From positions 8,286,001 through 8,350,000 of the forward strand of contig OY754466.1 of assembly GCA_963575645.1 (NCBI GenBank): 64,000 nt of DNA, read 5' to 3'. Positions 4,171-63,464 of the stretch are shown here, in pieces (the stretch's first letter is position 1; each line of letters opens with the position of its first letter). Source of the DNA: Xanthostigma xanthostigma (Eukaryota; Arthropoda; Insecta; Raphidioptera; Raphidiidae). The notes under the pieces were generated by a model. That model was not told the origin of the DNA and did not search any database. It saw nothing but the letters and a program-made list of their open reading frames with translations. Both the position numbers and the translations under genes were made by a program.

Positions 4171-6035
4171 GTAAGCTGAATGCCTTTTCATCAATAATTA
4201 TTTTTCATTTTGTTTGCTGCCTAGATAATCGCTGGATCTACATTCTTTAAAAAGAGATTTCGATAATTGTACAACAGCTTAACTCTAAATAAGGCAAAAT
4301 AGAGAATAGTTACTTCTTACCACAACAAGTTTATTAGTGGATGTACATTTCGAGAGCTATGCTCTCATCTTCAGCAATACACTAAACTAGTTTATTGCTG
4401 AAGATGAGAGCATAGCTCTCGAAATGTACATCCACTAATAAACTTGTTGTGGTAAGAAGTAACTATTCTCTATTTTTTATTAGATTCAAACCACAGTGCT
4501 CCTAATATTTTTGTTATCTAAATAAGGCTACTAAAATTGGAAAAAGATCTATTTCAAAATTAAATACATTTCTTTTTAAATAAAATTTAAATTGACTTAC
4601 CAAAATATCTGGCTAAATTCACTTCACACAAGTTGAAACCGTGAAAGTCCCTAGCTTTTGTTGTTTTGAAGCACACACTTTTTAACTAAGATGTTACAAA
4701 CGTTTAAATTGTTAAATGTGAAACATTTTTGTATTTACTATTCATGGCGAACATTGATGAAGTTCATGTCTGTCGTTTATTTGAAGATCAAATAAATTAA
4801 ACACGTCTAATTAATATTCTAAGGAACTATTCTGACAGGCGGTTAAAAACTAAACACATCATAACTTTTATACCGCGTAACTGCCATCTTGCTTTTAGAT
4901 AGTCTAATAACAGTCATGCGCACTAATCAAAATGTGTTTTTTGTTTGTTGTAACGTCTTTTTGAAACGTTAAAATTTAAATTAAACGGTGCGAGTTGAGA
5001 TGAATGTGTTGTTATTCACTAATATAATTCAGTGTCAGCATATTACATAACTAATATAAAAATGCAATCATTGAAATCACCTTTTGTGTACAGAATGAGT
5101 GTTAAACAACGTAAAACAAGTGATTGATCAAGCTTTTTAAAGTTAGGTTATAAAATGCAGTGAAAATAAAATAACTTGTGATATTGTACACTGGATTTCG
5201 CCTGTAACATGTTTATAAAAATATCAAATATTTTCGTCCTGTCAGCTATGTATATATGTAGTATCAGTTTTTCTTTGAGTAATCAATGTTAATACTTTAA
5301 CCTGACACAAACTAAATTGCCGCCTGTCAGTTTGAAACTTTAGTCACATAGAGCGGGCGGCTGAGAGAATGTGAAATCATTTTGCTTTGACAGGCCTAAA
5401 TATAGCACATTCTAAGACAGTTCGTAGTAGCGATGTAAATAATAAAGTCTATTTTTGTCATGAGACACCTTTAATACACTCCACTGTCTCTTGAACTGCA
5501 GTGTTTTTATTTTAGTGTGTGGGTGATGATACAGACATGTGAGTGAAACAAAAGAAGGTTAAAATAACAAAAAACAAAACAGTGGTAGATAGTGCTTTTT
5601 CAATTTGAATTTTCAATAACCGTAACAGACATTTTTAATTGATACAAAACTAAAATTTAATAAACACTAAACTGGCTTTCAACTTTTTTTTGTGTATTTT
5701 TAACTGTGCTACTTATATTTAGACCAAAATAATCTTTTGTTAATTAAATACAGACTAAAGGTATTCTTTTTTAGAGTAAAAAACAAATGAAACTAACGTA
5801 TCCATTTATTTATCTTGTTTATATTTACCTATACTAATATATATAGAAAAAAATTCATGTACTTTAAAACTGAAGAATCACTGAACCAATTTGAAAAATT
5901 ATCTGACTGTGTAAAAGCCTACTTCTTTATAACGCTTTGAAAAAATTGTTGAATATTTAAACAATCTGAATAGTAAAATATGATAAGAAAGTGACAAAAT
6001 ATAGATAAATTTTAATCGCTTGGTGTATTTTACAG
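4171..6035 (+). other. intron 3
   Basis: A 1,865-bp AT-rich intron. It contains the long hairpin at 4297-4475. CTGACAGGCGG near 4834 and its reverse CCGCCTGTCAG near 5320 could be ends of a roughly 500-bp miniature element, but I find no convincing target duplication. Nothing is recognised from 5340 to 6035. Confidence 0.6.
4297..4475. repeat. long near-perfect hairpin with Penelope-like stem-loop
   Basis: Two ~83-bp arms (4297-4379 and 4393-4475) are essentially perfect reverse complements around a 13-nt loop. The right arm contains CTGAAGA, then GAGAGC-ATA-GCTCTC, then GAAATGT (4398-4427), the layout of the Penelope-like terminal motif seen elsewhere in the window. By symmetry the left arm carries it on the minus strand. 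Confidence 0.85.
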
Positions 6036-6200
6036 AAAGAATTGGAGCTCGGTGATAGCAGTGACAAAAACAAATCGTTGCATCGTTTCGTTACAAATTT
6101 AGACAATTTGATATCATGGGTGATGGAAACCAAAACTCGTATCAACATTAGTCATGATCTGCCGCAATCCGAGAGAGATTCAACTCTGCAAACGCTAGCG
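6036..6200 (+). CDS. dystrophin-like exon D, spectrin repeat helix A
   Basis: This exon is 165 nt (55 codons), phase 0-0, with acceptor TATTTTACAG and donor GTGAGT at 6201. It encodes a charged lead-in, then SLHRFVTNLDNLISWVMETK, a classic helix A with the conserved Trp, then the A-B turn. It opens a third repeat that exons E and F complete. Confidence 0.87.
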
Positions 6201-7106
6201 GTGAGTTACTTTTAACCTTTTGCAGACCCGTAATAACCTTAAACGTTGTACAGTAACATCGGGTAGCTGAAACTAAAGTTTTAACTGTGTACTTATGCAG
6301 TCTGATATATTTTAGAAGTTTCTATACAACATTTTAGCGTATGTATTGTATTCAAAAATCGACCAAGAGTTCCAGCTCCTTTTGTACACATATAGTTCCG
6401 CACCGGTAGCTATCGCGTTTCCGAGACGCTTGGTTCGGAACTACGGAACCGATTTTCATGAAACTTTTGTGCCAATAGTTGAAGTCGTGTATTTTTAACC
6501 TACCGGGACTAATCGACTTATGTATTTTCAACTTCTTCTTAATTCTCACTTCGTGGCAGTTATGGACCAATGAGAAAACACTTTTATTAATTTGAGGTTA
6601 AACAATTGTCAAACGATTTTTTCATTGGTTGAGCAGCGCAGACCCTTTGCGTGAGAAGTGGGTACTAAAATGTTGAAATCAGTTGAAAATAGATGGTGTT
6701 AAAAATACATGAGTTCGATTGTATCTATAAAACGTCATGTTTCTAAGTTAAATGCGGCTGGGGACACGATATTGTAATAAAATTACCCACTTTGTTGATC
6801 CCCCACATGGTATCTATTATTAGATAATTCAAATGGCTGTCTTCATAGAATTAATAAAATTAAACTTCATAGAATTTAATTTTTTTAAATACCTTATGTA
6901 AGGAAACGCCCTAAATATGTATTCTATAAAAAAATAGTGTTTTTCTGAACTTTATTCATCAAATTGGATAAGTAGGGATAGACGGAAAGACAGGTGAAAT
7001 ATTGAAAGCAAAGATTCCATCTTTTGGGTTCGGAACTTTAAACTAAGGAAAACCTTGAAAAATCTAAACAGCTTAAATTATATGAATTCTATACATTTTT
7101 TTTCAG
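6201..7106 (+). other. intron 4
   Basis: A 906-bp intron. Around 6440-6480 it has the wording CGGAACCGATTTTCATGAAA, common in the 3' regions of insect LINE/SINE relics, so an old fragment is likely at about 6351-6560. Nothing else is recognised. The acceptor is a long T-run followed by CAG at 7104-7106. Confidence 0.55.
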
Positions 7107-7205
7107 AATTCAATTCAAGATCGTGAAATGGAAGTCAAAGAAGTTTTTGAAAATTATCATAACTTAGAGTCTTCTCTGAAACCTGCCAAAGCTATTGAAC
7201 TACAG
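7107..7205 (+). CDS. dystrophin-like exon E, spectrin repeat helix B
   Basis: This exon is 99 nt (33 codons), phase 0-0, with donor GTAAGA at 7206. It encodes a single amphipathic helix (EMEVKEVFENYHNLESSLK), the helix B of the repeat begun in exon D. Only a 284-bp intron separates it from exon F. Confidence 0.86.
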
Positions 7206-7489
7206 GTAAGATCTTGTTTCAAATGTTCTTATAAGATTCAAGAAAAAGTAAAATTTCTCTCGAAAGTAAAACATTTTGCGAGTTTCAGAACAGTTCTCTG
7301 ATTTTCTTTGAAAAACTTCTGAAATAATTTTCAGTGATTTTCCCCGAAACAAACAATGTTTACGTAAATTGCTAGTAAAATTTTATACTTTTTCATTTGA
7401 ATGCTTTTACCGGGGAATGAATTGTCAGTATTCGAAACTTTAAAAGCAAATTTTTAAAAAATGCGTTTTTTTTTTTTTTTATTGAACAG

Positions 7490-7857: not shown

Positions 7858-8110
7858 TTGTGTTTTTTAATCTGTTCTTCAAAAATCTTAAACGCTGTTC
7901 GCCATGTTGGATTTCGGCGTGACGTCACTTCGTCTATAAACTACCTAATGTTATGTTGTGCTGTGTGTTATTTTGAAGTTATTTCAAGTTATTATCACGT
8001 TTATAGACTTCCATCGCGTATTTTATTGATTTCGCATTATGGAAGATGGTTTCGTAAAAACAGAAAGTACTAATCTACAGTATATATTAGATATCGTGTC
8101 CATCGATAAT
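7858..8110. other. unassigned intronic stretch
   Basis: AT-rich sequence with a short open frame at 7858-8073 that resembles nothing I know. No repeat recognised. Confidence 0.4.
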
Positions 8111-8243
8111 AGTTAATAAGAAAAAATTCGCAGGTTTGTGGACAAAAGTTATATTTATAATTGTACGACGTTTCGTCTATAAATTTAGACTTTTTCAAGT
8201 ACAATTTTGTACTTGAAAAAGTACGAATTTTTTCTTATTAACT
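8111..8243 (-). repeat. Penelope-like terminal unit in a palindrome
   Basis: Twenty-bp arms (8111-8130 and 8224-8243, CGAATTTTTTCTTATTAACT at the right) enclose a stem-loop on the minus strand at 8167-8199. That stem-loop reads TTGAAAA, A, GTCT-loop-AGAC, GAAACGTC. This is the Penelope/hammerhead-like layout with two core changes, so it is probably an inactive relic. Confidence 0.7.
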
Positions 8244-9240
8244 AATCTACAGTGTTACTATGATTACTGTGCACGTGTCATTTTGGCGCGAAAATTCATA
8301 ATGACAAATTAAAACTCATTTTTATGGGACTATTCGGTTATAAAATATTGTTATAAAAATTGTAGTGGTTCTTTATCACTTTAGGATTCATTTAAAACAT
8401 TTTATCAAAAACGGTGTAATAGCCTATATTTTACAATTTTTTAAGCGAAAGTTCGAAACTATGAGAACAGAATTCATTTAAATAAGTTTTATGCAATCTT
8501 TAATTAAAAATATTGATTTAATGACTGTTCATTGTTAAGCGGCGTGTACACTATATATTTCGTTGTCAGTTGGGCTGATCCTAAGGTGCAAAAACCTAAT
8601 GTGTCGCCCCCCTAGAGAATTTTTCAAATTTTGGCTTATATTTAACGTTGACGTTATACACTCATCTACCTGTATAAGAGTAATAAAAAATAAGTTAAAA
8701 AACTAAAATCCGACTACTGAAAAGTATGAAACTATAAAAAATTCTCATCTGTGGATAGCCGTGGTCATATGCCACCTACCCTAACAAAACATTACATTTT
8801 AACAGTTGTAAGCGATCATAAGCTCTTGGGCAGTGATGACGAACCTTTTTGAGAAGTGGGTCAAATTTTGCTAATCATTTTTTTAGTACTAGTCAGTGGC
8901 GTTATTTGGAAAAGGAGAGGGGGGATGGTAAAATATTATTTTTTTTTTTTTAGTTCAAAACTCTTTTTGGACGATACACGACGTTTTACGACCATGCTGG
9001 ATTCAGCGTGTTTTTTTCTATAAGCATGATGATTTTGCAAAAGTGCCGAAAAATTTCGGTTTTCGTCAAAAATCGTATTTTTTTAAAGGGGTATGCCTTG
9101 AAAAAATTGCAAAAATCGAGTTCTTTAATTAATTTTTGAAATTGAGAATGTTTAAAGAAAAAAATACGCTGAATTCAATGAGCGTAAGCAAACGTCTGTA
9201 TCTCTTTTAGTTTGGAAACTACAGCCATTCGAAGGTTTTA
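8244..9240. repeat. intronic stretch with a duplicated 130-bp block
   Basis: The block at about 9000-9130 recurs in the same orientation at about 9985-10101 (shared words include GATTCAGCGTGTTTTTTTCT and CCTTGAAAAAATTGCAAAAA). About 850 bp of other repeats therefore lie between two direct copies. The remainder, 8244-8990, shows nothing I can name. Confidence 0.65.
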
Positions 9241-9248
9241 TAATTTTA

Positions 9249-9415: not shown

Positions 9416-9508
9416 CTTTTTTTAACTAATAATTTTTTTTTTATTAATTAAATAAAATTAAAATAAATTTAAAGCAATGTAGAAAATAAAAAAAAATAAA
9501 AATATTTT

Positions 9509-9581
9509 CGCCCAACGTGGGGCTCGAACCCACGACCCTGATATTGACAGTCGCACGCTCTACCGATTGAGCCATTCGACG
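9509..9581 (-). pseudogene. tRNA-Lys-derived SINE head
   Basis: Read on the minus strand this has GGCTCAATCGGTAGAGCG (box A region) and GGGTCGTGGGTTCGAGCCCC (T arm), ending in GTTGGGCG, like insect tRNA-Lys. The anticodon loop is altered, and the 5' acceptor strand does not pair well, so it is not a working tRNA. The same tRNA-like unit with the same flanks recurs at 24396-24467, which marks it as a SINE. Confidence 0.75.
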
Positions 9582-9652: not shown

Positions 9653-9895
9653 TGTCACTGAACTCCTCCTAAACGGCTGGACCGATTTTGATGAAATTTT
9701 TTGTGTATGTTCAAGGGGATTCGAGAATGGTTTAGATTCACAATTTGGTCCAGTGGAAAATTAATAAAAAAATTAATTAAAAAAACATATTCCAGTGGAC
9801 AAAATTGTGAATCTAAACCATTCTCGAATCCCCTTGAACACACACAAAAAATTTCATCAAAATCGGTCCAGCCGTTTAGAAGGAATTCAGTGACA
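9653..9895. repeat. palindrome of a LINE/SINE 3' fragment
   Basis: Arms of about 105 bp (9653-9760 and 9788-9895) are near-perfect reverse complements. Both contain the motif CGATTTTGATGAAATTTTTT, typical of insect non-LTR retrotransposon tails. Two copies of one tail lie head to head. Confidence 0.85.
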
Positions 9896-10212: not shown

Positions 10213-11158
10213 TTATAGTAGAAGAGCCGAACCTAAATCGACCTTCACCGAGCTGATAATACTTAGAATGAAACATATTTTATCATGAATTTAGTATATT
10301 AGAAAATATATTAAAAATGGGTTTGCTAAAAAAATCCTGGACAGACTATTTTTAATTATTTTTAAAAAAATGATTTTTTATTAAATGTTGCAACATCAAG
10401 ATAAGAAAATTTTGTCCTGACTTGAAGTATAAAACGTATCCTATAAACGTATCGGTCCTATTAGGGGTTTGCGAATTTTAAAGATTTTAATTTTGACGCG
10501 CGTGGAAGTGTATGACAGAGAGATCCGAGGTAAGTAACTGTGTAATAATAAAGGACCCAACATCGCAGTCGCTTGTGATGGCACCCTGAATATTAGAAAG
10601 TGCTCGGTATGTAAACTTTCTAATATTCAGGGTGCCATCACAAGCGACTGCTATGTTAGGTCCTTTATTATTACACAGTTACTTACCTTGGATCTCTCTG
10701 TCACACACTTCTACGCGCGTCATAATTAAATTCGCAAACCCCTAATAGGACCGAATTTTTCGCAGACGAGACAACCCTATATCAACGTGTTCGCAATAAA
10801 ACAGCGCTTATGATGATATAAATTTTTTTCTATTATCCAATCAAGTGAAAGTAACTTGCATCGACATACCTGTTTATACCTGACAACCCAGTAGTTCGCC
10901 CAGGTAAATAATAGACAACCCAACGGCTGCACATTCTATACGTTTTATACTTCAAGTCAGGACAAAATTTTCTTATTATCTTGATGTTGCAACATTCATT
11001 TTTTTTAAAAATAATTAAAAATAGTCTGTCCAGGATTTTTGTAGCAAACCCATTTTTATTATATTTTCTAATATACTAAATTCATGATAAAATATGTTTC
11101 ATTCTATTATCAGCTCGGTGAAGGTCGATTTAGGTTCGGCTCTTAGACTAATAGCGTT
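10213..11158. repeat. giant imperfect palindrome, about 950 bp
   Basis: Outer arms of about 230 bp (from AGAGCCGAACCTAAATCGAC at 10224 to its reverse ending near 11144) enclose inner arms of about 150 bp that meet near 10610. About 180 bp present only on the right side (10760-10940) interrupts the symmetry. No coding capacity is seen. The class is unclear: it is a fold-back or long-TIR element. Confidence 0.8.
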
Positions 11159-15097: not shown

Positions 15098-15549
15098 AGG
15101 CCGCTGTACACGAGACTAGAAAACGCTGCCAGATTCTTTGCTAGATTTACCTACCTACTAGTTTTCTTAGTGCTGACTTTCTTGATTGCTGTTATGTGCT
15201 CGCTTCACACGAGACGTCTTTTCAAGCTAGTTTTGTGAATAGATCTGGTGCGTGCGCAGTGACAGTTCAAATATAAACACAGAGCAAAACGTTTCTGTTG
15301 TCTGACTCTGCGAGCAGAATGACGCCGTGTTGGTTTGTGGGCGTTTGTACAAGTCGCCCACGTGACAAGATACTGCTTCCTAATTGGTTCTTGCTCATAT
15401 CTGGCAGCGGGCCTAGCAAGGAAAATAGCCCCTGTTCTAATTTTAAAACCTATCTTGTGAGCCCGCAGTGACGTCATTTCCAGCTTCGTACCCAGCCTAC
15501 CGGCCAGCAGAACTCTATGCAGTGTTTCCAGCCTCGTGTGCAGCGGCCT
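15098..15549. mobile_element. PIF/Harbinger-like MITE, copy 1
   Basis: 452 bp with ends AGGCCGCTGTACACGAGACT and, reversed, AGGCCGCTGCACACGAGGCT, flanked by the 3-bp duplication TAA (15095-15097 and 15550-15552). The 3-bp T-A-type duplication and GGCC-type ends fit PIF/Harbinger. Other copies are at 21849-22275 and 60558-60965. Confidence 0.82.
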
Positions 15550-15890
15550 TAATTCGTTAAAGAATACCGATTTCCAAGCTCGTTCTGTGAATTCGGAATT
15601 TTGGCTTTTTTTTTACTTTTGGCCACACGTGTATTAAATTACAAATGTCGCTCGGACCAATTAGAGTCGACGTAACATTTTGTTTATATCAACATATCCA
15701 TTAAGAGCTAGCCGTGTCTCACTCCCCTCTCTTCGTTTCGTACCCATAATTATGTCCTGTTTTGGTCAATTTATTGTGCCCCTCCCTACATAGTGGTCGG
15801 AGTTCGGTTAATTATTATTGTTATTGTAGAGGCGCTGCTGGCACCTTGTTTACACCAATCGTAGTTTGTTTAAACAGTGACGTGACGAAA
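15550..15890. other. unassigned intronic stretch
   Basis: No gene or recognisable element. The sequence is ordinary intron with mixed composition. Confidence 0.4.
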
Positions 15891-16234: not shown

Positions 16235-16244
16235 TCTTATCTAT

Positions 16245-18219: not shown

Positions 18220-18365
18220 GCGGCATCGCGCGCCTTAATAGAAACTTGACGTATACCTATATCCGGTATTAGATTAGAAATATATAGACAGCATTGATTC
18301 TCCGAAGATGGCATAAAGATTGCCGAAACGTCAGACAATAAAATGCAATAAAAACCTTGAGTATT
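18220..18365 (+). repeat. Penelope-like terminal unit
   Basis: A short retroelement-like start (CTAGCCGTCACCCGCGGCAT) is followed at 18302-18332 by CCGAAGA, T, GGCA-loop-TGCC, GAAACGTC. That is the Penelope/hammerhead-like stem-loop seen nine times in the window. No palindrome arms are seen around this copy. Confidence 0.65.
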
Positions 18366-19054: not shown

Positions 19055-19393
19055 AAAAAAAAAAACTTCGGAGAAGTAAAAACTTCGTTCTGAGCTAAAT
19101 TCAAAAACTTGAGGAGACTGAATCTCAAGATTATAACTTAAAAAAAAACAATTTCGAGGCAGACAAGACATTGAAATCAAGATCGAAATTATGTGTCTAA
19201 GACGTCTAAAAAAAATGAATTTCGAGGCAGACAAGGAATTGAAATCCAACCTCGAAATTCGAGCTTGATTTCAATTTCTTGTCTGCCTCGACATTTTTTT
19301 TTTTTAGTTATAATCTTGAGATCAAGTCTCCTCAAGTTTTTGAATTTAGCACAGAACGAAGTTTTTACTTCTCCGAAGTTTTTTTTTTTTTAA
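19055..19393. repeat. inverted-repeat element with CTTCGGAGAAG ends
   Basis: Ends read AAACTTCGGAGAAGTAAAAA and its reverse. Internal words GAGGCAGACAAG and ATTGAAATC recur in both orientations. One arm recurs at about 61395-61610. Probably a DNA-type miniature with long inverted ends and internal duplications; no target duplication was identified. Confidence 0.75.
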
Positions 19394-21459: not shown

Positions 21460-21848
21460 ACGGTCATTTATATGTAATCTGCGAAGGCTTCGACTATATA
21501 TACACCTGAAGTCTGTTTGCATGTACAAATTGCCTATAGCGTATACTAAAGACATTAAAGCTCTTGAGATATGTATACCTACGTGCGTTGGGAGAGGGAG
21601 GGGATGGCGAGTCGTGTTCTAGGACTAGCTAGAGCAACTGTCCCTGCGCCCCTCACATACCGCCCGTCGGTGATTTCCTCTTGCGTATGTCTAAAAGGAA
21701 GTCGTAAATATAGTCCGAAGAAGGCATTCGCTCTCTCTGTCTTGATGTCTGTTCTACCCCATTCAGCAGCTACTGTTCGAATTCGTCGTCGTCGGTCGGA
21801 TTCCGAACTATGTCGAGCGCAAATTGTCGCTGTCAAACTTGCTGTATA
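21460..21848. other. unassigned stretch, moderately GC-rich
   Basis: Between the nested MITE and the Harbinger-like copy. Open frames on both strands at 21571-21860 have no familiar motif. Nothing else is seen. Confidence 0.4.
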
Positions 21849-22275
21849 AGGCCGCTGCACACGAGGGTAGAAACGCTGCTAGGAGCTCTGCTAGCCGGTA
21901 GGCTGGGTACGAAGCTGGAAATGACGTCATTGCGGGCTGCCTTGCTAGCTCAGAAGATAGGTTTTAAAATTAGAACAGGGGCTATTTTCCCTGCTAGATT
22001 TGTTGCTAGCAAGAACCAATCAGGAAGCAGTATTTTCACGTGGGCACTTGAACACCCACATGGCGTCATTCTGCCAGACAACAGACACGTTTTGCTCTGT
22101 GTTTATATTCGAACTGTCACTGCGCGCGCACCATATCTATCCACAAAACACGCTTGAAAAATAGTCTCGTGTGAAGCGAGCACTTAACAACAATGAAGAA
22201 AACCAGCGCTAGAAAACTAGTAGGCAAATCTAGCAAGGAATCTAGCAGCGTTTCTAGCCTCGTGTGCAGTGGCCT
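21849..22275. mobile_element. PIF/Harbinger-like MITE, copy 2
   Basis: 427 bp. Ends AGGCCGCTGCACACGAGGGT and, reversed, AGGCCACTGCACACGAGGCT. Flanks ATA and TTA agree with a degenerate TWA duplication. Body shared with copies 1 and 3, including CTGTCACTGCGCGCGCAC and GGTTTTAAAATTAGAACAGG. Confidence 0.78.
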
Positions 22276-24395: not shown

Positions 24396-24467
24396 CACCC
24401 AACATGGGGCTCGAACCCACGACCCTGATATCAAGAATCACGTACTCTACCGACTGAGCTATTCGAG
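24396..24467 (-). pseudogene. tRNA-Lys-derived SINE head, second copy
   Basis: Minus strand: TAGCTCAGTCGGTAGAGTAC and GGGTCGTGGGTTCGAGCCCC, closer to tRNA-Lys than the copy at 9509-9581. CTT appears at the anticodon position, but the anticodon stem is disturbed. Flanking sequence is shared with the other copy on both sides. Confidence 0.75.
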
Positions 24468-24499
24468 CTTCCGATGTGCTAGGCTAATATTGGTATATT

Positions 24500-40608: not shown

Positions 40609-41175
40609 TGTGCCAGAATGTCGACAAGATTTGATTCCGAGAGGGTGTAAAATGCAGCACGATTATATCGGGAAATACAACCGTGCTATTGCTTTAATTA
40701 ATATTGATTGATTAAGTTTTCTGTTTTCTCAAGTAAATCATATCCTATAATGCAATTCTGATTTTATTTTTTTTCCTCTCAGGGATTTTCAGTTTTTCTC
40801 TTCCGTGCAATCACATATCCTTCCACCATGGTTAACATAAAGTTTAGAAGCTCATTCATTATAATAAATAATGCCAAATTTGTTTTTGTACTAATCAACC
40901 TTCGGGAAAATCAATCTGGAATTCGAGGAGAATATGATTTGTTTATGTCGCATTGATTGCCTTTTGTGATTGTTGATTTTTAAATCCTTCGATTGTGATT
41001 AGGACTTTTTCTAAAGCATCAAGAATACATCTGCAAGTGGCAGAATACACTTCTCTGATTGCCCAGAACAGCAAGTTTTATATCTTAAGCAGTTGTCGAT
41101 TCCCAAATTCGTCTACTAATGCAAAAGGAATATAAACCCAAAATTGTTGGTAGAAGTTTTGTTCCAAAAATATGT
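40609..41175. other. unassigned intronic stretch
   Basis: AT-rich, no recognised features. Confidence 0.4.
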
Positions 41176-41335
41176 ATTGAAGGAGATTTATTTGCTTGAT
41201 GAACAATAAGCTTTACCAGAGTATCGCATTGATGCCCTGATGATGAAAATATATTTTTCGAAACGTTGGCCACAAGCGATACTCTGCTAAAGCTTATTTT
41301 TCAATTGTTCCTCAACCAAATAAATCTCCTTCAAT
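41176..41335 (+). repeat. Penelope-like unit at apex of a hairpin
   Basis: Arms of ~55 bp (ATTGAAGGAGATTTATTTG at the left, mirrored at the right, and AGAGTATCGC / GCGATACTCT closest to the loop) hold a stem-loop at 41237-41267: CTGATGA, T, GAAAA-loop-TTTTC, GAAACGTT. CTGATGA and GAAA are the two invariant blocks of a hammerhead ribozyme. Confidence 0.8.
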
Positions 41336-42916
41336 AAACCCAAAACTGTGTGACAATCATAATACAAAGAATTGATTGCCTAAAATTGCAAACGCGATTT
41401 CTTCAACTGCTCCTCGATTTATATCTTTACCTCTGATTGGAACTGTTCCCAAAACACAAGAAAAGGACTATTTCTGCACTCAGTGTAACACCATCTGTCT
41501 TTAGATCGCGTGCATCCGGCGGTAGCAGTGAGCAGGCTATAAACAAGAAATAGCGCCCGCCCTTCTCTCCCGCCGTGTGTTTATCGGCGATCTGACTACG
41601 TGTAACCGCCGTTACGTGTTGCACAACCGTGTGGGTTACGTGACCACGTCACAACAGCAGACCAGTTACAAGATGCCGGGTTACGGCGATCGTTTTGATT
41701 AGACTACCATCGCTCTTTTCCATTCGCCACGAAACCTATGCAAAAACAATGTTTCAGGCGTTGGGGATATCTTCCCAACTACTTCGTCAAATATACCGTA
41801 CTATTCGATACATGCGTCGGTCCCTTAAGCGCTGTGAAATTTTAATCAAACGTCTTTGCTCTATGTAGCCCCAAATCTCTTAGTTTTCGTGATTCCCGTG
41901 TTTACTGTTGTCAAGTGTAAACGAGGGTAGATTAGATATACATGTTGCTTATCTGAAGCCTATAATAAATCATTGATAATAATAATTTATTACATACAAT
42001 TTATTTGCTGTTGAGCCTGAGATACTTAAGTTTGGTGGATTTACCATATAAATCTTACTCCTGCTTAAATCCTCGAGTCTTTCGAAACTATCGAGTCAGA
42101 TGTATGTTCTCATTTTGATTCATCTAATTCTACTTTGTCAAAAAAATATCATCAAAGGGATAGAGTTGAAAAACAGCAGTTTTGTTGCTGAACTCATTTA
42201 TCCCATTGATTTCTGTGATCAATAAATTTATTTATTATTATTATCATAACCTTTAGCAGAAAGTTCTCTCAGTTGTAACAATATTTTTATTTGAAATTAT
42301 TGTAACTAAGTTACAATCTAAGAAATACTTTTTTCATGATCAAACTACTGATTTGTCGTACAGATCTCTGCAATTCGTATTAAATTTTTAGATTTAGCAG
42401 AAACCTTATCAGACCACTTTTTTATTGTCTGGTGCTCATGAATCTCAATGCTATTTAATTGTTTGTCTGAAGATATTCATATATTTTATAATCACCGCAT
42501 AAATTCTCTGCCGTTTGCTATTGGGTTTGATATTCGTGGTCAAAGGCTTGAGCCTTGCGAAACTCCAGTTTAACTAAAAGTGTGTTCCATGTATTATGCT
42601 TTGTATTTTCCATTAATCATTAACCTCATCACAGGTGTACTCAGCTTCTCAAGTTCAGGTGTATCTAAGGGTTTACCACAAGTGGCGTTGTATATGCTGC
42701 CATGCAAAACTTTGAACCTTGCGTTATCATAGCTCATTCGATAACCAAAAAAATATTTTTCCTTTGATGTTTCTTAATTTTTCTTTAGTTTTATGAATGT
42801 ATTTTTATTGAAATATAATAATTCATGACCATTTTTTATACAGCATTGATAAATTGAAAACCCAATGATGTCATTAATAATATAGAACGAAAACTGACCG
42901 CAGCAATGCCCTAAGA
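41336..42916. other. unassigned intronic stretch
   Basis: No gene or element recognised; mixed composition around 41450-41700. Confidence 0.4.
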
Positions 42917-44170: not shown

Positions 44171-44608
44171 TTTTATAATTTTTTTTATTTTTTTATAATA
44201 TAATATATATTATAATAAAGAGTATACAGACAATTATGCCTAACAACTCACAAAGATTAAAATTTACAATATAATATTTTTTAATGATCTTAAAGATATA
44301 TTCAGATATATTCTTCAGCTCTTATAAACAGAAAAAAGTGATGAATACTGAAAATTCGCTCTAAGAATTTTTAAAAATGTTCAATTACAGTCTAAGTTAC
44401 GATTTTATTTATTTGAATTAATTGAGCTAACGCCTGTATAATTCATTAAAAAAACAACTCTCACAGTATGTGAATTTTGTAATCCGGTACTATATATACA
44501 GACACCGGACAAACCACACCATATTATATGTAAAATATATTATAAACAAACTCTTCATCTTTATTTATTTAGTATAAATATCATGTGACTCTCGGTCTCC
44601 TTCAGTAG
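44171..44608. repeat. AT-rich tail region
   Basis: Contains AATAAAGAGTATACAGACAA, similar to a LINE 3' end. Otherwise AT-rich and unassigned. Confidence 0.4.
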
Positions 44609-44755
44609 CAGAATAACGCCGTCAAAGCGGCAGACTTTGTTGAAAATAAGTTAACAAAGAATTACGATTATTGTAACTGTAGAACAATCGTTTTTTTATT
44701 GTTAACTTATCTTCAACAAAGTTTGCCGCTTTGACGACGGTATTCACTATTCTGA
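44609..44755. repeat. palindrome, ~50-bp arms
   Basis: CCGTCAAAGCGGCAGACTTT ... AAGTTAACAA is mirrored by TTGTTAACTT ... AAAGTTTGCCGCTTTGACG around an AT-rich loop. Confidence 0.8.
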
Positions 44756-45280
44756 TATTATAAGGATACCGAGCGCGGTCTTCTTAAATATTAATATAAA
44801 TTAATAGAAATGAAATTTTTTTCATAGTAAAACAATTATTTTTTAAGGGTTTTTTAGGGATATTTCAATTTGTGGGGGGAAAGATTTTTAGGAGTTGGCA
44901 ACCCTGGTATCTGGAGAGACAGTGCCAAGTTTAGGACTAATAACACCTGTATATAGTGTTTTGGCGAATGTGTCACACCTGTATTTTAAGTATGTATGTG
45001 TAATAGGTACACAAATATCCATTACAACATCAACAAAGAGACGTTCTCTGTTACGGTTTAACAACAAACAGTGGCGACAATGTGCTCTTCTGTGCGGACT
45101 GCTGGAGTACCATCAAACAAAAAATGTCACATTGCAATTTCCGCCGTCGCTTTGTCCACACAAAGAGTTTCTAGATTGTTCCAGTATTCACAACTGGTAG
45201 CGCTGCAGGAACATGTCATAAGCAGACACGTTTAAATCTGCAGTTTGGCTCGAAGATTCTAGTCAGTAACCAGTGACTAA
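44756..45280. repeat. intronic stretch with hAT-like remnant
   Basis: 44840-44912 resembles the right part of the element near 33560-33640 (GGGATATTTCAATTTGTGGG, AGGAGTTGGCAACCCTGG). The open frame 44895-45200 has no known domain and no splice support. Confidence 0.4.
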
Positions 45281-50300: not shown

Positions 50301-50523
50301 GCATACACAAAGAAAAAAACTGTACCAACAAACAAATCAAATGTATTCAAGTCAGAAATATTGTGTATTATTGTTATTGATTTTTTTCTTCATTGTTGTT
50401 TTTATCCAAAGATGCATTTTAATGTTCAACAAAGTGTACAATTTTCGTTTTTTACCGAAATGTGGCATACTGCACAGAAAAGTTTTTTTTCAATGTTTCA
50501 TTATTCGTTTCCATAGTATAATA
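50301..50523. other. unassigned intronic stretch
   Basis: T-rich, with short open frames at 50274-50535 that match nothing. Confidence 0.4.
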
Positions 50524-50850
50524 TTAGTTAGATAAATCGTAGGAAGTTGGAAAGGTAAATAAACTTGAATTTGATTTTATTAAATTGGACGTTTCGTCAT
50601 TTAATTTGGACTTCATCAGCAACTTACTAATAAAATTCAATTATTAAAAATAAAAACATTTTTGTTAAAATAATTATAAAATCTAATAAATGCCATTTTG
50701 TCACTTTGAATTTCTCGAATTTTATTTAAAGTGACAAAATGGCATTTATTAGATTTTATTATTATTTTAACAAAAAAGTTTTTATTTTTAACAATTGAAT
50801 TTTATTAGTAAGTTATTTACCTTTCCAACTTCCTACGATTTATCTAACTA
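50524..50850 (-). repeat. Penelope-like unit in an asymmetric palindrome
   Basis: Outer arms (AGTTAGATAAATCGTAGGAA at left and its reverse at right) and inner arms of ~110 bp. The left side holds ~60 bp extra with a minus-strand stem-loop at 50588-50619: CTGATGA, A, GTC-loop-GAC, GAAACGTC. The right side lost or never had that block. Confidence 0.78.
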
Positions 50851-52780
50851 GTTTTTTTTTTCAATCTTTTGTAATTTGCAATAACAAAATTGCCCTTGGA
50901 AACGCGTATAAACGCTATAACGATGAAAATTTTTGATTAATTTCAGCAAATAAAATAGCGACATGTTTCAGAAACTGAAATATTTTTATATTATAACTTC
51001 AGGAAGTTCGCTTTATTGATTCTCTTAATTAAATTCCTCGGATGATTTGTAGGAATTAAAAATATAAAGTCTTGAAGAGGAGTTTGAGGCGAACGCGTTG
51101 TGCAAGAAACAAAACAATAAAACGGAAACAGGAAGTTCCAATTACTCGAGCTGCGACTTTCTTTTATTTGTAACTCGAGAGCCAATGATGAAAGTATAAA
51201 TCAATACGACATTCGAATGAAGTGTTCTATGTTTAATCTAAAACCTGTTACAGCTTCCACGCAATATTTAAAATTCGTTATTTACACTTGAAAACAACGT
51301 ATCCTTGGCGCCAAAAATTACTCCAACACGGCGTCTAAAATACTATTACCACTTACTCAAAAATCAATTCCGCATCTGGCATTGTATTTTACTCCTAGAT
51401 ATTTTTTCTGGCTCAAAGGAGCCCGCACAAACCTTATGGGATTTGGTTCTCGGTTAAATTGATCGAAAATGGTTTTATTTTATAGTTTAAAGGTCTATAA
51501 GAAAAAGTGTCCAAGGGCGCATATAGCCTAAAAACTAAGATTTTTAGCTATAGAGTAATGTTTAGCGAGATTTAAGATACAGGGATATCATTGAATTCAC
51601 AAACATGTTCCATATGTTCAGCTTTTGTGCTTTTTTTTAGAATTAGAAAAATAGTCGAAAACTAGGTAATATTGGAAGGTATCATCCTGTATAAAATAAT
51701 AATGTCATATTCGGATTCAGCGGATTCGAAAACATATAGCTCTGGAACTTAGGATTTTTTAAGATTGTGAATTCAATGAATATCTTATATCTAAAATCTA
51801 GCTAAACTTATGTGTAGCAAGAAATCTGTTGGTTTTTAAGTTATCAGATTCTGGAAAACTTAGGAAATTGACTAGGTATATTAGTTTTCAAAAGACGTAC
51901 AGTTCGACCTTACGACGAACAAAGGAAACTTGGATATATTGTAAGGAAGCAGAATTTAGTCGAAATAGAATAGTAAAAACAGATGGACTAGAAGGCGCCA
52001 ACGAAATCGCTGGGTTGGATTTCCGCAAGGCTCAAGTGTTTGACCAGAAATTAATGATTAACGTTTGTTGTCGAACTTCATGATTGGTAAGAACGAGCAA
52101 ATTAAACAGCATACGCACGATTTGGAGACAAGATCAAGGAATGGAATTTTCGCAGAATTTTGTACTTGGATCAGAAATAATGCACACGACTTGGGACAGA
52201 GTATTTTGACTGAATAAGACTTCAGGATAAATCTGTAGATGAACTCATTATTTTTGTTCAGTTTTCAAATAAACTGTTTTCTGTTTCAAATGCGCCCTCT
52301 GTATTCTGACCATGCGTTTTAACAGCTGTGTTTTAACAAAATGTGACAAAAACTTAGAATTTTCTGTTTCTTAAGTTTGCGTGCTGCAATTACCGACATG
52401 AACACCAGGAGCTGTGCTATCGGAGTCGACTGTGTTTTGTTTACACTTTGTGTCTGAAAAGTGCGCCAACATGTAGATTAAAAACGTATTATTATGAAGT
52501 AATCGGTTCTACAAATAATCGTTGTATGGAATCATACTTCTAATTTGACCTAACGATGTACTAAAGCTATTGGGGTGCAGTACGCCAGTTGTATGGGAGC
52601 GATAAAATTCGAAGAAAAAAAAACTTTTTTTGAAATATGGGCGTAAGTTTCATTTTGGAATAAGCTTTTCACGGGACTTAATTTTGTTGTCCTATTTAAA
52701 GCACATAAATATATGTAATAAGTATAATGAGAACTATATAGATATTAAAATCTTTGATTAACGTTTGATTAGAACTCTTC
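50851..52780. other. plain intron, about 1.9 kb
   Basis: I see no element ends, tandem array, tRNA-like sequence or exon in this stretch; 51829-52083 is open but unsupported. Confidence 0.45.
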
Positions 52781-53065
52781 GATAAATAAAATTATCGACC
52801 AATTTTTCTTCAGACAATATATTAACAAAATATATAATTAATACATTAACGTTTCGATCCGGATTTGGACCTTTTTCAGAACTGATCTAAAAAATATAAA
52901 AAAATAATTAATATTTAATTTCTAATTCGCTTTTTATAAAATTCCTTCAAAATTATTAATTAATATCAAAATATTGAAAAAATAATAATAATCGAACCGT
53001 TGATGTATTAATTATATATTTTGTTAATATATTGTTTGAAAAATTGGTCGATAATTTTATTTATT
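52781..53065 (-). repeat. Penelope-like unit in a palindrome, family P1
   Basis: Arms TAAATAAAATTATCGACC and its reverse, with AATATATTAACAAAATATAT inside. The minus-strand stem-loop at 52848-52879 reads CTGAAAA, A, GGTCC-loop-GGATC, GAAACGTT. A close relative is at 57996-58272. Confidence 0.78.
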
Positions 53066-53773
53066 ATATAGATATTATTTAGATGTGTTTGATATCGTAT
53101 TCCAGTGTAAAAAGTGATAGGTAACACTTTTGACACTAGTGCGTTTATTATATACAAAAATATTTAAAAAAAGCGAGTGTGTTTTAGACCACATGACTGA
53201 AGTAAATCTTATTCCTGCCATAATTATTTTAAATATGTTTATTAAGAATAATGCGTAAATACCTCAAACTTGCTCATGTTAAATTCATAAACGAACAATA
53301 ATATGCAGTCGGTTCGTCTCAAAGTTTATCGAACACAATATAACCTCACGTGTTAAAACAATAAAATAATCTTATATTCAGTTGGGCTGTTTGTAGTTCT
53401 TAATTTGTTTTGTTTTTTTCGGTCAAATGACTCAATTTACACGCTATCAAGTAATGTGTATAAAAACCCTTTCGAGTTTTTGACGAGGGGTTGTAGTTTC
53501 CATATGATACGGTTCTAGTTGTTCTATCCCTTTGTATAGGGGTTGTTCTGTGTTGTTTGTCCAATATAATTTGGCATATACATTCCATATTTTCGATCCC
53601 GTAGCTGTCAAAATACACAACTGGGACCAGATTTGTAATCTCAGAGCGCAACATGTCGAATAATAATTAATTGTTGTACAAGCACTTATGAATAATTGGT
53701 AAATAAAAATTTTATGTTAATTTTTGCGGTTTATAATGGATATGGAAATAATATATACGTTAATATAAATATA
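53066..53773. other. unassigned intronic stretch
   Basis: AT-rich, no recognised features. Confidence 0.4.
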
Positions 53774-56630: not shown

Positions 56631-57223
56631 CTAGTGTGACCTGTGCGAATTATTCGCACTAAATAAGTATAATAATGATCACTTTACAAAATTATTTTTT
56701 AAATATGATTGCAGGTATTCAATTCGTTTCTAATTTTGCACACTGCTTATAACGTTCTTCTTTTTGTTGTATTACAATATGAAGCTCAGATGACAGATCG
56801 AAGAAATATTTTACTACAATTGTCATATAGAGGCGCAAGTAGCAAAAGCGTTGATCTAAGCCAGATGGCAGCATGTAGCATTGCTGTGACGTTGTTCAGC
56901 GTTGCTCGCTGTTTCAAAATTAAAACCGTCAGATGGCAGTATGCAGTATTGTGTATGTTGTATTACAATATGAAAGCCAGATGACAGATCGAAGTGTTGA
57001 CGTTGTTTCAAAATTAAAGCCGTTAGATGGCAGACGTTGTTCAGCGTTGCTGTATTTTAATTAATTTACAAAAACAAAAGCAATAATAAATTTTTCAGTT
57101 GTCGATGTCAGTAGAGCAAGCAATTATCTGTAAAATGATATATAAGTTTATGTGGACAAATTGTGAGGTTTTTTCTAAAAAGGGAGGCAAACATCTTTAA
57201 CCTTAGCGTATTAATATATATGA
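56631..57223 (-). mobile_element. non-autonomous Helitron, copy 2
   Basis: Minus orientation. 3' end CTAG at 56631-56634 with T outside, hairpin at 56643-56659, 5' TC at 57222-57223 with A outside. Larger than copy 1 because the CAGATGGCAG / TTTCAAAATTAAA block is repeated inside. Confidence 0.82.
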
Positions 57224-57995
57224 TACATGTCTTATATCTAGATTTTCTGGTTTTTGCGATAGAGCCTTAACAAAAACGACCTAAAATTGGTAACTTTGAC
57301 GACCTCTCACATAGTACGTATCAAAGATTTTGAACGTTTCTGAAGTGAAACTTCTTTAAGCGCGGCAGAGCATGTTGGCCAAGATCAAACAAGTGAAACG
57401 CTTCTCCTTCTCCAACTTCAACCGGCAATTGTGAAGAAAAGGTGGGAGAATCGTTTCTGCTCTCTCTGTTAAAGCATTATAAGCACTCTACACGCATGCG
57501 CAGTGCGTACTGTGTGTATACGTAGCATCTTCTACTCACGTTAACAAATTCTACATAACCATTGCCTAACCTTGAAATAATAAAATCGTCAACAAATGCC
57601 AGAACTTAAGAAGTTTAACTTTTGTGAAGAAAACTTATCTCAAATAAGAGAAGACTGTGATCCTCGATTGATTATGATGTTTGGATGAAGATAGTGTTTC
57701 CACCTTAGGGTATTTTTTCCTAACTTTAGGGGAACTTTTTCTCATCAGGGAAATTTTTAGGGTAGATATATATTTTTTTTAGGATAAATTATTAGAAGTT
57801 TAAGAATTTAGTTTTTAGTTCATTAATACACATTTTAATTTATAACAAACATTCAATTTTAAAGATTTATAGGGGAACATATTTTCAAAGCTGTTTTTAG
57901 GGAATTTTTATTTCCGGGTTAGAGGAAAATCAATTCTCAAAATGTCAACACTGGCTGAAGAATTCAAATCTTTGACTAACGTCTGAATAAAACTC
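57224..57995. repeat. intronic stretch with decayed element
   Basis: 57715-57960 has repeated TTTAGGG words (TTTTTAGGGTAGATA, TTTTTAGGGAATTTTTA), like 43720-43770 and 44840. Otherwise unassigned. Confidence 0.4.
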
Positions 57996-58272
57996 TTCAA
58001 ATAAATAAAATTGTCGACCAATTTTTTTCAGACCATATATTGACAAAAAATAATATAAAAATATAAATCAATATAACAAAAGATGACGTTTCGATCCGGA
58101 TTTGGATCTTCTTTAGAAATATCTAAAAAATATAAAAATTAATTAGTATTAGTTATTTATTATCTAATAGAATGCACGAATGATTGAGTTTGAATGAATC
58201 AAATTTATATTTTTATATTATTTTTTGTCAATATATGGTCTGAAAAAAAGTCGACAATTTTATTTATTTGAA
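57996..58272 (-). repeat. Penelope-like unit in a palindrome, family P1 copy 2
   Basis: Arms TTCAAATAAATAAAATTGTC and its reverse, with CCATATATTGACAAAAAATA inside. The minus-strand stem-loop at 58085-58116 is CTAAAGA, A, GATCC-AAATCC-GGATC, GAAACGTC, with a perfect 5-bp stem. Homology to 52781-53065 extends left of the arm (TTTGACTAACGTCTGA). Confidence 0.8.
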
Positions 58273-58335
58273 CTGGATGAAGAACTTTTTCGTTGCATAG
58301 GATCAAAAACAAAAGCAATACTATTGTTAGAAATT

Positions 58336-58367
58336 GCATTTCGACAAAATATGTTTGTCGTCTTCGA
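58336..58367 (-). repeat. Penelope-like stem-loop, solitary
   Basis: Minus strand TCGAAGA, C, GACAAA-loop-TTTTGTC, GAAATGC. Core positions deviate; no palindrome arms found. Weakest of the nine. Confidence 0.5.
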
Positions 58368-59697: not shown

Positions 59698-60557
59698 TTT
59701 TACGTTTTGTGTCTCGTACCAAATTTTTGATTTTGTGGTTGAAATTATTTTTCGGAACAGATTGTAAAGTGTTTTGTTTTATACCATAATTACAACATCT
59801 TGAAAATAAGATATTAAACGCTTGTGGTGTGTTGTGGTTGAGTGTTTGGTGTTATTTTGAACTATTTAAAGCCCGGATTACACTTGAGACGCGCGCCATT
59901 GAGGAGGAGGTACTTTAATGCTATCATGTGGTATGCCTCAGGCACTTTGCAGCATCGCTTTAATGTAAGCCTTTTGTTTCTTTTGCTTAAGTAAATATTT
60001 GTAACAGTTTTTGTTGTAAAATGAAATGTTTTGTCAGCTGTCAAAACACACAAACGTTGATACAAAGAATAGTAGTTTGTTTATAGTTCGTAACAGCAGT
60101 TATTATTTACGAGTTGTAACATAAAAAAATGAGATTTTGGCGAGTCATAATAGCATTAAATTCGAGAAACATATTGCAATTTTTTGCACGTCTCTCCTAT
60201 AAAATAGCTGATTTTCACTTAAATTTATTTTTGACAGCTGTGTGTAGTCATTTGCTTACGAATACCACGTCTGCTTTGCTATCTTTGTTAGTCTTATTTT
60301 ATTTAAATGGCAACTGACAGGTATTTTGTCACGTTGGCGACATGGAAAAACGCCGACAAACAAACATGGCGTCGTAGTGTGCGTTCTGTTCAGAGACAAT
60401 AAACGTCCACTTTTGTTAACATTCGAACTGTCACTGCGCGCGCACTAAACCCATCTACAAAGCAAGTTTCAATACACGCATCGTGTGAAGCGAACACATA
60501 AAAGGCGTCACGAAACCCAGCGTCATAGTACGCTTGAAACCTAGCAGCCAAATCTAA
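59698..60557. repeat. intronic stretch, truncated Harbinger-like piece at end
   Basis: 60420-60545 repeats CGAACTGTCACTGCGCGCGC and CGAAACCCAGCGTCATAGT from the Harbinger-like composite. 59700-60400 is unassigned; the frame 60129-60317 has no known domain. Confidence 0.45.
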
Positions 60558-60965
60558 AGCCCGCTGCACACGAGGCTAAAAACATTGCTGAGACTTCTGA
60601 AGGCCGGCAGGCTGGAAATGACGTCACTGCGGCCTCGTCTGCTAGCTCACAACATGGATTGTAAAATTAGAACAGGAAGTATTTTTTTCTTGCTTGGCCC
60701 TCTGCTTGCCCGGAGCAAGAACCAATCAGGAGACAGTATCTTGTCACGTGGGCGACAAACGCTTACAAACAAACACTGTGCCATGGTTAGATGTTCTGTT
60801 CAATAAACGTCCAGTTTTGATTACCTTTCTATCACTGTCTATACCTACAAAACAAGCTTGATAAGACGTCTCGTGTGAAGCGAGCACATAAGAGCAATTA
60901 GGAAAACTAGTAGTGAAATCTAGCAAGGAATCTAGCGGCAAATCCAGCCTCGTGTGCAGCGGCCT
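60558..60965. mobile_element. PIF/Harbinger-like MITE, copy 3
   Basis: 408 bp. TAA at 60555-60557 and 60966-60968. Ends AGCCCGCTGCACACGAGGCT and, reversed, AGGCCGCTGCACACGAGGCT. Confidence 0.82.
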
Positions 60966-61394
60966 TAAGTTAAGGTGCACGATTAGCGGCTGTATGCTAA
61001 CAAAGTTTGCCTTTTGACACGCTGTTAATTCTCCTCGTTGCCGCTAGTTCTTTAATAGTTTTAATAACATTTTCACAAAAGCACTTAACTTCTAAGAAGG
61101 CTGCTTCGTTTAGTTACTTTCAAACAGTGTCTTACAAAAGTTTGTTAACTGTTTTAATAATAAAATCATCCGCAAATAAAATTGAACATGTTTTTTTTAT
61201 GCTGGTAGATTTTTTTATTGAGAACGTTCAAGTATTAATTTTTTATTATCGAAGAATCTCGTTAAAGCTTCTTTTCTGTGCTAAATGCAACAGCAAAAAA
61301 AGTGCACAGACGGCGTTTTTTTAGTGGTAAATAAAGGAGTTATGCGAACACCGTCTTTGATTTTTTTGTTGTTGCTCTTGTAGCTTTTATAGGC
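60966..61394. other. unassigned intronic stretch
   Basis: The first ~45 bp match those after 23080. The open frame 61007-61324 is AT-rich and has no domain I know. GAAGAATCTCGTTAAAGCTT near 61252 resembles GGAGAATCTCGTTAGAGATT near 18527. Confidence 0.4.
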
Positions 61395-61610
61395 ACAGAA
61401 TTTCGAGGTTGGATTTCAATTCCTTGTCTGCCTCGAAATTCATTTTTTTTTTCGACGTCTTAGGCACAGAATTTCGAGCTTGATTTCAATTTCTTGTCTG
61501 CCTCGAAATTCTTTTTTTTAAGTTATAATCTTGAGATCCAGTCGCCTCAAGTTTTTGAATTTAGCACAGAACGAAGTTTTTACTTCTCCGAAGTTTTTTT
61601 TTTTTAAGAT
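61395..61610 (+). repeat. arm of the CTTCGGAGAAG element
   Basis: Same words as the right half of 19055-19393 (GATTTCAATTTCTTGTCTGC, TTTTTGAATTTAGCACAGAA, ACTTCTCCGAAGTT), with the ATTTCGAG-GCAGACAAG block present twice. Confidence 0.72.
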
Positions 61611-62672
61611 ATTATATATTTTTTATTTCGCTAGTTTTGAACCCCATCATAACAAATCATATTTCACATCTGCCAAACATCCCAAGACGGCTCCTAATTT
61701 TGCCATTCCAACACCACAAGTGTTTTACAATATTTATTCGTTTTGGGGTCCCCGAATCCAAAAAAAAAATAATTTTGGAAAAAAAACTGTCTGTGAACAC
61801 GATGCAGGTCAAACGGATGAGCGGATTCAAACCAAATTTTAGGAGGATGTTTGATATACAAATATGAAGAGCCCAGTTGTTATGAAGCGATATATGCTAT
61901 AAGGTTGTTTTTTAATATAATAATGGTCTACTTTTCTATCTGTTTTTACGTGAAAGTTTTGTAAAAAAATTCTTTCGGAAATATTTTCAAATTAAAAAAA
62001 ATCAGCTGTTTCTTTTGTTCTGTAGATCTGTTAGTTGTCAAGCATGCTTTGGTTAATTTTACATATAGATAACCATGTAAATATCGCAAATATCATAATA
62101 TTTAATACTAGCCGTTACCCGCGCCGCCGTACGCGTTAACAGAAATGTGTCAAATAAATATTTTTAAAGTTGGAATGGTCCCGTCGCCCAATGGGCTGAA
62201 CTTTTTTTATTCTATCCGAAAAATATTTTTTCTGTGCTAATTTTCAAAATGGAAAACTGTTGAGGACACTGCTCTCTTATTCATTATTATAACAACTGAG
62301 TGTATGTTACATACTTGACAGTCGAGTGCAGTAGACACTGGCGCGTACCTCATTAAGGCCTCAATTACTGCCGGCCAGAGCCTCAACATAACTCAACGGG
62401 TAATTACCGACACACTATTGTGCTCTAACAGTGATGCAAGTCTGCACTGCAAATTGGGTTTTACACGCAACTACCTAAAATCAATCCAGCGATCGAGCAG
62501 CCATGGAACCATGTTGAGCTATGAAACATAACCTATAATTTAGCCTAGATTTTGTATCGATGAAAACATGGCTTTACAATTTTACGTAGACTTTTGGACT
62601 GTTTAGAGCTTATAGAACGTCAACAATTCTTATAGAATTCACGCCAGGAAATTATAGGAAAGTACTTATTTA
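61611..62672. repeat. intronic stretch with dispersed repeat fragments
   Basis: 61690-61860 carries GTCTGTGAACACGATGCAGG and GGATGAGCGGATTCAAACC, and 62155-62200 carries TGGTCCCGTCGCCCAATGGG, from the family at 32620-32950. CTAGCCGTTACCCGCG at 62108 is a retroelement-like start. The rest is unassigned. Confidence 0.5.
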
Positions 62673-63464
62673 CTAGAGTGACCTGTGCGAATTATTCGCA
62701 CTAAATACATAAGTATAATAATTATCACTTTACAAAATTATTTTTTAAATATGATTGCAGGTATTCAATTCGTTTCTAATTTTGCGCACTGCTTATAACG
62801 TTCTTCTTTTTGTAAAATTTTTCAGGTCTTATAAATAATAAATAGGAAATTATAATCTAATTAATCTAATTTTAATTTAAATGTATAATTTGTGTCTGTT
62901 TTGTTAGATACCTGAAGAAGTCGGAATCAAACCGACGAAACGTCGTGTATATATGAAAAAATAGTCAAAACAAATTGGCTGTGGTCTTTTCACCTGATTA
63001 AAATTTCCTATTTGTTCTTCTTTTTGTTGTATTACAATATGAAGCTCAGATCGAAGAAATATTTTACTAAAATTGTCATATAGAGGCGCAAGTAGCAAAA
63101 GCGTTGAGCTAAGCCGTCAGATGCCATCATGCAGCATTGCTGTGACGTTGTTCAGCGTTGCTCGCTGTTTCAAAATTAAAGCCGTCAGATGGCAGTATGC
63201 AGTATTTACAATATGAAGGTCAGATGACAGTCGAAGTGTTGACGTTGTTTCAAAATTATAGCCGTCAGATGGCAGACGTTGTTCAGCGTTGCTGTTAATT
63301 AATTAATTTACAAAAAACAAAAGCAATAATAAATTTTTTAGTTGTCGATGTCAGTAGAGCAAGCAATTATCTGTAAAATGATATATAATTTATGTGGAGA
63401 AATTGTGTGGTTTTTTCTAAAAAGGGAGGCAAACATCTTTAACCTTAACGTATTATATATATGA
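62673..63464 (-). mobile_element. non-autonomous Helitron, copy 3, interrupted
   Basis: Minus orientation. 3' CTAG at 62673-62676 (T outside), the GTGCGAATTATTCGCAC hairpin just inside, 5' TC at 63463-63464 (A outside). Interrupted by the 201-bp Penelope-like unit at 62813-63013. Confidence 0.84.
62813..63013 (+). mobile_element. solo Penelope-like unit with 13-bp duplication
   Basis: Flanked by GTTCTTCTTTTTG at 62800-62812 and 63014-63026; the uninterrupted Helitron copies have it once. The stem-loop at 62912-62944 reads CTGAAGA, A, GTCGG-AATCAAA-CCGAC, GAAACGTC, with a perfect 5-bp stem. AAATAGGAAATT occurs inverted at 62849 and at the right end. Confidence 0.85.

Follow-up and report, generated by a model that had tools for sequence, protein, structure and literature searches.

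Xanthostigma xanthostigma (Raphidiidae) carries, in the 64,000 nucleotides that make up our window (positions 8,286,001 to 8,350,000 of contig OY754466.1, GenBank assembly GCA_963575645.1), a scattering of stem-loops that resemble the core of the hammerhead ribozyme, nine of which had been listed in an earlier note made from the letters alone. Most of these sites lie inside short non-coding insertions, each made of two inverted pieces of a pseudo-long terminal repeat (pLTR). Because an open reading frame (ORF) for reverse transcriptase (RT) lies between direct copies of the motif, and because the insertions have target duplications, a one-sided tail and head-to-head arms, we conclude, with a probability of roughly 85%, that the carriers are several families of Penelope-like elements (PLEs) with minimal hammerheads in their pLTRs. 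Minimal hammerheads of Penelope elements have already been published, and this genome is an abundant further case. The reading of the motifs as a hammerhead core within PLEs, already put forward in the earlier note, is supported by covariation of stems I and II and by the RT ORF between motifs, to which we add a stem I, a loopless ACGU stem III, and inverted-arm insertions with target duplications of their own, all absent from that note.

All nine stretches are present in the window as written, with exact matches to the strict pattern at 41237, 50588 and 62912 only and substitutions at the other six sites. We searched the window with a covariance model (R1) of 19 aligned sequences, four rows of which come from the window itself (62902, 50578, 18292 and 4388), while 41237, 52848, 8167, 58085 and 4344 stand outside the model's rows, which do include relatives of 41237. 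This search recovered eight of the nine sites (E 1.1e-10 to 3.8e-5) as well as an overlooked site at 4344-4374(-), the mirror image of 4398(+), so the list of nine is partly confirmed; all nine recovered sites—the eight plus the mirror copy—have E<1e-4, and the next window match stands at E 0.079. The site that failed, 58336-58367(-), is not among the 30 window matches at E<=10 and reads TCGAAGA at the position where CTGANGA is expected, and may at best be a decayed copy of the motif.

Counted by pattern, the excess inside the window is weak: a relaxed form, CTGANGAN{10,40}GAAAC, matches 4 times where shuffles average 0.85, and 2 of 100 shuffles reach four or more. Genome-wide the excess is decisive, with 15,487 exact matches (7710 + 7777) to the strict pattern CTGANGANGN{5,30}CGAAACGTY in the 623-Mb assembly, compared with 3 + 0 for the reversed pattern, a count that covers only forms with an extra base after A9.

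In the type I hammerhead, stem I is followed by the stretch from C3 to A9, stem II, G12 to A15.1, C-G-U16.1 and H17, after which cleavage occurs; the open end lies at stem I, stem III is closed by a loop, and no base separates A9 from 10.1. The CUGANGA and GAAA core blocks are present in both the pattern and the alignment (58336 is without them), and the bases immediately 5' of CTGANGA pair with those immediately 3' of GAAACGTY to form stem I, whose positions 1-4 are paired in 97/72/69/56% of 36 distinct motifs vs. 66/44/40/42% in shuffles. Across the 19 aligned sequences, 90.7% of the cells of stems I and II are paired (52.6% shuffled), the covariation score of the two stems is 0.992 (0.222 shuffled, at most 0.189 in slid versions), and stem II always opens with a G-C pair. 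Core letters stay constant between families with wholly unlike stems I and II, and the covariation test against shuffles and slides bears out the claim that structure is kept more than sequence, placing both stems where a type I hammerhead requires them, with the open end at stem I.

Two features depart from the type I consensus. Stem III is a loopless palindrome, ACGU, between the core and the cut site, which could close only between two motif copies or molecules; cofolding of two copies gave mixed long-range dimers and no isolated ACGU helix. In addition, one A or T stands between A9 and stem II in 19/19 sequences, the extra base that had been pointed out before, where the consensus core has none. 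The motif is, by prediction from its letters, a minimal type I hammerhead.

The carriers could be followed outside the window. A fragment between two motifs at locus L021 led to 150 scored matches out of 2709 candidates, with long open frames in many, and at L069 a motif, an 835-amino-acid RT ORF and a second motif follow one another in the same direction, each motif being one letter off the strict pattern. The RT part of this ORF matches RVT_1 (E 3.1e-10), and its C-terminus, judged by eye from known motifs, looks GIY-YIG-like, for which Pfam gives no confirmation. L071 is a 4850-bp palindrome of the RT element with arms 99.9% identical. The tail of the short copies of this family (GATCC, after its stem) is the sequence directly downstream of the pLTR in L069; by sequence, two elements of the window, 52735-53077 and 57950-58284, fall into the GATCC family, the former having the pLTR of L021 and L069. 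Direct and inverted pLTRs, a tail and target duplications, all Penelope-type features, are found together with the RT.

We also examined how copies are arranged and flanked. Among the first 100 places listed there are 23 neighbors at no more than 1.5 kb, 21 of them in -/+ and 2 in +/+ orientation. A target duplication score of at least 12 was reached by 17 of 25 pairs, compared with 2.5% of 600 swapped flanks; this set joins 20 fetched pairs with five window elements whose coordinates were given by hand (four of the five have the motif on one arm only) and counts a repeat at L024 that is part of a longer palindrome without clear duplication. Further insertions gave a similar picture (14/20 vs. 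1.3% of 380 controls), and the duplications found by score are mostly 9 to 17 bp long. A tail, defined from copies of the same families in which it was then counted, is confined to a single arm in 28 of the 37 distinct pairs (from 39 rows, L072 being L020 and L073 being L024), on both arms in none and unscored in 9, and on one arm in 20 of 20 further insertions (8 left, 12 right). Over all 57 pairs, this makes 48 one-sided tails, 0 two-sided and 9 without a scored tail—an asymmetry that constrains any model of integration. At L024 = L073 (G000:C1, near 3812790), the palindrome runs on to either side for ~50 bp past the end of the pLTR, and a tail was not found there.

Several results weigh against this assignment. 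Rfam yields no hammerhead in the window, neither at the gathering score nor among matches listed up to E 10, and likewise none among matches listed up to E 10 when given 41200-41320. Stem I is short or broken in some copies of the GATCC family, many of which form only one stem I pair directly at the core. The whole 835-amino-acid ORF of L069 has no Pfam family at E<=0.01, Pfam detects no GIY-YIG in its C-terminal part, and its matches in PDB reach no better than E 0.1, which is weak. The GATCC family is the only one with known autonomous partners, those of the other families not having been sought, and the nine pairs without a scored tail comprise four from families with an undefined tail, two just below threshold and three that are tailless.

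For comparison with published systems we draw on excerpts of the papers cited. The PLE protein of Anolis cuts and extends both strands of its target, with reverse transcription beginning at two neighboring sites (PMC11167929). In the process we favor for the present families, two RNA copies would probably pair via ACGU, form a double hammerhead, cleave after GUC/GUU and so trim the transcripts. Both 3' ends of the cut target might then prime complementary DNA (cDNA), one at the pLTR end and the other ~30 nt downstream, leaving the tail, a step to which we would give even odds. The two antisense cDNAs would become linked through a short palindrome or through microhomology, producing a head-to-head insertion; that the RNAs are also brought together by ACGU pairing is conjecture. 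Priming of a separate cDNA by each target end would place the 3' ends of the element outside, make the flanks direct repeats and leave a tail at one end, as observed, and since two antisense cDNAs can pair only at self-complementary sites, the scheme fits the junctions seen.

Self-priming, by which a single cDNA would fold back and serve as its own template, in place of the joining of two separately primed cDNAs, has been proposed for Adineta vaga elements (PMC3846280), and near-identical arms (99.9% over the 4850 bp of L071) and junctions that favor palindromes speak for it here. Such copying would carry the tail into the second arm, yet 0/57 pairs are two-tailed; the flanks are direct repeats; and at least one pair (C4:13545926) joins T-type and A-type arms. 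We consider self-priming somewhat improbable.

That same pair also bears on the number of source RNAs. We had entertained two source RNAs per insertion, an idea prompted by an A/C difference between arms (16 C-A, 2 C-T and 3 C-C among 21 pairs), and dropped it as a general rule, linked markers agreeing between the arms of most loci. The arms were aligned for 20 loci chosen for the A/C difference (three of which yielded a single arm), L011, L018, L019 and the window copy, and agreement is ambiguous in L082, L088 and L089. The two arms of an insertion have, in most cases, the same haplotype, and the RNA is thus usually from a single source; the T-type arm joined to an A-type arm at C4:13545926, i.e., two subfamilies, runs counter to this rule and is the one mixed pair seen. 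The position concerned lies in the stem II loop of the GAAAA family and is A on one arm and C on the other in 16 of the 21 C-carrying pairs, with linked markers mostly in agreement.

Junctions between arms were then read for a footprint of cleavage. Close head-to-head pairs that retain the two motifs match at 196 places in the GAAAA family, the first ~50 of which were listed. Of 44 junctions at which both arms stop near the cut, 34 consist of a TGGCCA palindrome that spans the predicted cut (GAAACGTT^GGCC): the classifier labels 29 of them (both arms at the cut), and five more, each altered at one or two bases, were added by eye. At 20 TGGCCA-junction loci that we fetched, the arms of each locus share sub-haplotypes (those of L102 and L110 have diverged) and several sub-haplotypes occur; the junction therefore arose more than once. 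Of the control palindromes, AACGTT beside the cut accounts for 0/44 junctions in this family, GTTTCGAAAC for 2 (one altered) among 50 pairs listed of 69, and AAGCTT for 6 plus one altered, of 27. In pairs with one truncated arm, the other keeping its motif, 7 of 68 rows are joined at GGCC by our own count.

The other two families behave differently from such a footprint. Among 26 GATCC junctions, AACGTT occurs in 7, ATCCGGAT in 6 with up to 3 more altered, and 2 fall within 2 nt of the cut; in the GATAC family, 2 of 18 copies, which lie next to each other, match the cut exactly and 3 more lie within 1 nt. Neither family has a junction peak at the predicted cleavage site, a result that limits the case for in vivo cleavage, in keeping with the earlier caution that self-cleavage is not assured. 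A general cleavage footprint was accordingly demoted, palindrome joining accounting for all three families, and the rule common to them is joining at short self-complementary sites or by microhomology. A contribution of ribozyme cleavage to the GAAAA junctions is possible, inseparable as it is from palindrome joining. It is rather doubtful that GAAAA insertion scars record in vivo cleavage, with both cDNAs running off the cut 5' end of the RNA and their GGCC ends pairing, a process that would explain why junctions gather at the predicted cut while the six-letter AACGTT has none; if true, they would constitute a genomic footprint of in vivo Penelope hammerhead activity. Junction counts of this kind did not turn up in our literature search, which included excerpts of PMC10085705 and PMC12910113 and is not proof of absence. 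With ~15,500 exact motifs and hundreds of junctions, both the cutting of integrated RNA by ribozymes and the origin of head-to-head insertions become open to countable tests.

Two individual junctions may be recorded here. At G000:C5:17452093-17452173, the two arms each stop where the cut is predicted, at GGCC, and inverted foreign sequence adjoins them; at G000:C3:6228293-6228352, the arms reach the predicted cut or fall one base short of it and are separated by 14 consecutive A.

The same data bear on whether the motifs are inert, i.e., kept by descent from a few masters while the RNA stays uncleaved in the animal, which we judge unlikely. The extra base between A9 and stem II, the missing stem III loop and the junctions of two families without a general cleavage footprint are what inert motifs would give, and in the excerpts of the Anolis study ribozyme mutants left in vitro insertion unaffected and reads ending at the cut site were absent (PMC11167929). 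Set against this are the core letters, identical in families with entirely different stems I and II, and reviews according to which Penelope hammerheads cleave as dimers, with Lunse 2017 as their source (PMC7761336, PMC6466107). Inverted-repeat DNA transposons (miniature inverted-repeat transposable elements) with a conserved hairpin, suggested by short non-coding elements with inverted arms and target duplications, are very improbable given the one-sided tail in place of two equivalent terminal inverted repeats, the variable arm lengths and many joining points, and an RT ORF flanked by the same pLTR.

Placed among known systems, these PLEs come closest to the minimal type I hammerheads without helix III described in Penelope pLTRs, with thousands of copies per genome and dimeric cleavage (PMC7761336, PMC6155905, PMC6466107, PMC7229834). 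The published forms, known to us through papers citing Cervera and de la Pena 2014 and Lunse, Weinberg and Breaker 2017, are alike in their type I class, missing or minimal helix III, location in pLTRs and dispersed non-coding copies, numbers in the thousands per genome and proposed dimeric cleavage; here, most copies are in inverted rather than tandem pairs, and all 19 aligned sequences have the extra base after A9. PAc, a Poseidon element of Anolis carolinensis, likewise has an RT ORF flanked by hammerhead-bearing pLTRs plus a tail. In PAc the ATG is placed where stem II begins and the cut follows 26 bp further on, an arrangement that by inference matches the CTGANG-ATG families here, whereas the L069 ORF begins downstream of the motif. 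Cleavage in PAc is protein-dependent and dispensable for insertion (PMC11167929). Penelope elements of Adineta vaga share head-to-head inverted pLTRs, a 31-bp tail on one of them and junction palindromes; their target duplications are 8-10 bp (PMC3846280), those found by score here mostly 9 to 17 bp, and the copy number here allows tails and junctions to be counted. Animal retrozymes are also non-autonomous elements with type I hammerheads, but they are arranged in tandem, have canonical hammerheads and form circular RNA (PMC7229834), whereas here a minimal motif stands in inverted pairs in 21 of the 23 listed close neighbors, just 2 having the same direction.

Coordinates of the motifs and of the insertions that carry them are collected below; the duplication around 4284..4528 was missed by the automatic test, which scanned only >60 nt from the motif.

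Motifs and insertions in the window, with E values from model R1
Feature	Position	Strand	Details
Palindromic element	4284..4528	.	arms 4296-4384 / 4388-4476, 89 nt, 99%; duplication TCTAAATAAGGC at 4284-4295, 4517-4528
Hammerhead motif	4344..4374	-	E 5.4e-6
Hammerhead motif, GAAAUGUA variant	4398..4427	+	E 5e-6; model row
Inverted-arm element	8110..8244	.	arms 8110-8137 / 8217-8244
Hammerhead motif, core partly altered	8167..8199	-	E 6e-7
Hammerhead motif, solo, no inverted arms seen	18302..18332	+	E 1.1e-10; model row
Short head-to-head element, GAAAA family	41132..41349	.	duplication ATAAACCCAAAAYTGT at 41132-41147, 41334-41349; left tail
Hammerhead motif	41237..41267	+	exact strict pattern; E 2.8e-10
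Inverted-arm element	50483..50869	.	duplication TTTTTTTTCAATSTTT at 50483-50498, 50854-50869; motif on single arm
Hammerhead motif	50588..50619	-	exact strict pattern; E 1.1e-10; model row
Short copy of RT-encoding GATCC family	52735..53077	.	duplication TATATAGATATTA at 52735-52747, 53065-53077; left tail
Hammerhead motif	52848..52879	-	E 6.7e-8
Short GATCC-family copy	57950..58284	.	duplication ACTGGMTGAAGAA at 57950-57962, 58272-58284; left tail
Hammerhead motif	58085..58116	-	E 3.8e-5
Claimed motif, unsupported, possibly decayed copy	58336..58367	-	absent at E<=10
Young element	62800..63027	.	duplication GTTCTTCTTTTTGT at 62800-62813, 63014-63027
Hammerhead motif	62912..62944	+	exact strict pattern; E 4.3e-10; model row

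The element at 62800-63027 is one of a young family: at least 41 other long matches across the genome have 96-99% identity to it. Its flanking GTTCTTCTTTTTGT, a T-rich 14-mer, has one further occurrence at 56754. As for the surroundings, which the earlier note placed in the introns of one gene, two exon-like ORFs of the window have no Pfam family, and a 'dystrophin-like' host gene, which we had considered, finds no support. TTAGG arrays are absent from the first 1200 bases of three contigs. Two tRNA-like matches to Rfam RF00005 at the gathering score, at 24396-24468(-) and 9517-9574(-), resemble parts of tRNA-derived repeats, and sub-threshold Rfam matches, mostly to microRNA families (9682-9866, 10566-10650, 19212-19300, 44598-44759 and 63825-63890), probably mark other inverted-repeat elements. 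Finally, the ORF pieces 15205-15612(-) and 21714-22157(+) have a peptide stretch in common, GRLGTKLEMTSLRA..KIGFKIRTGAIF, and represent another dispersed repeat.

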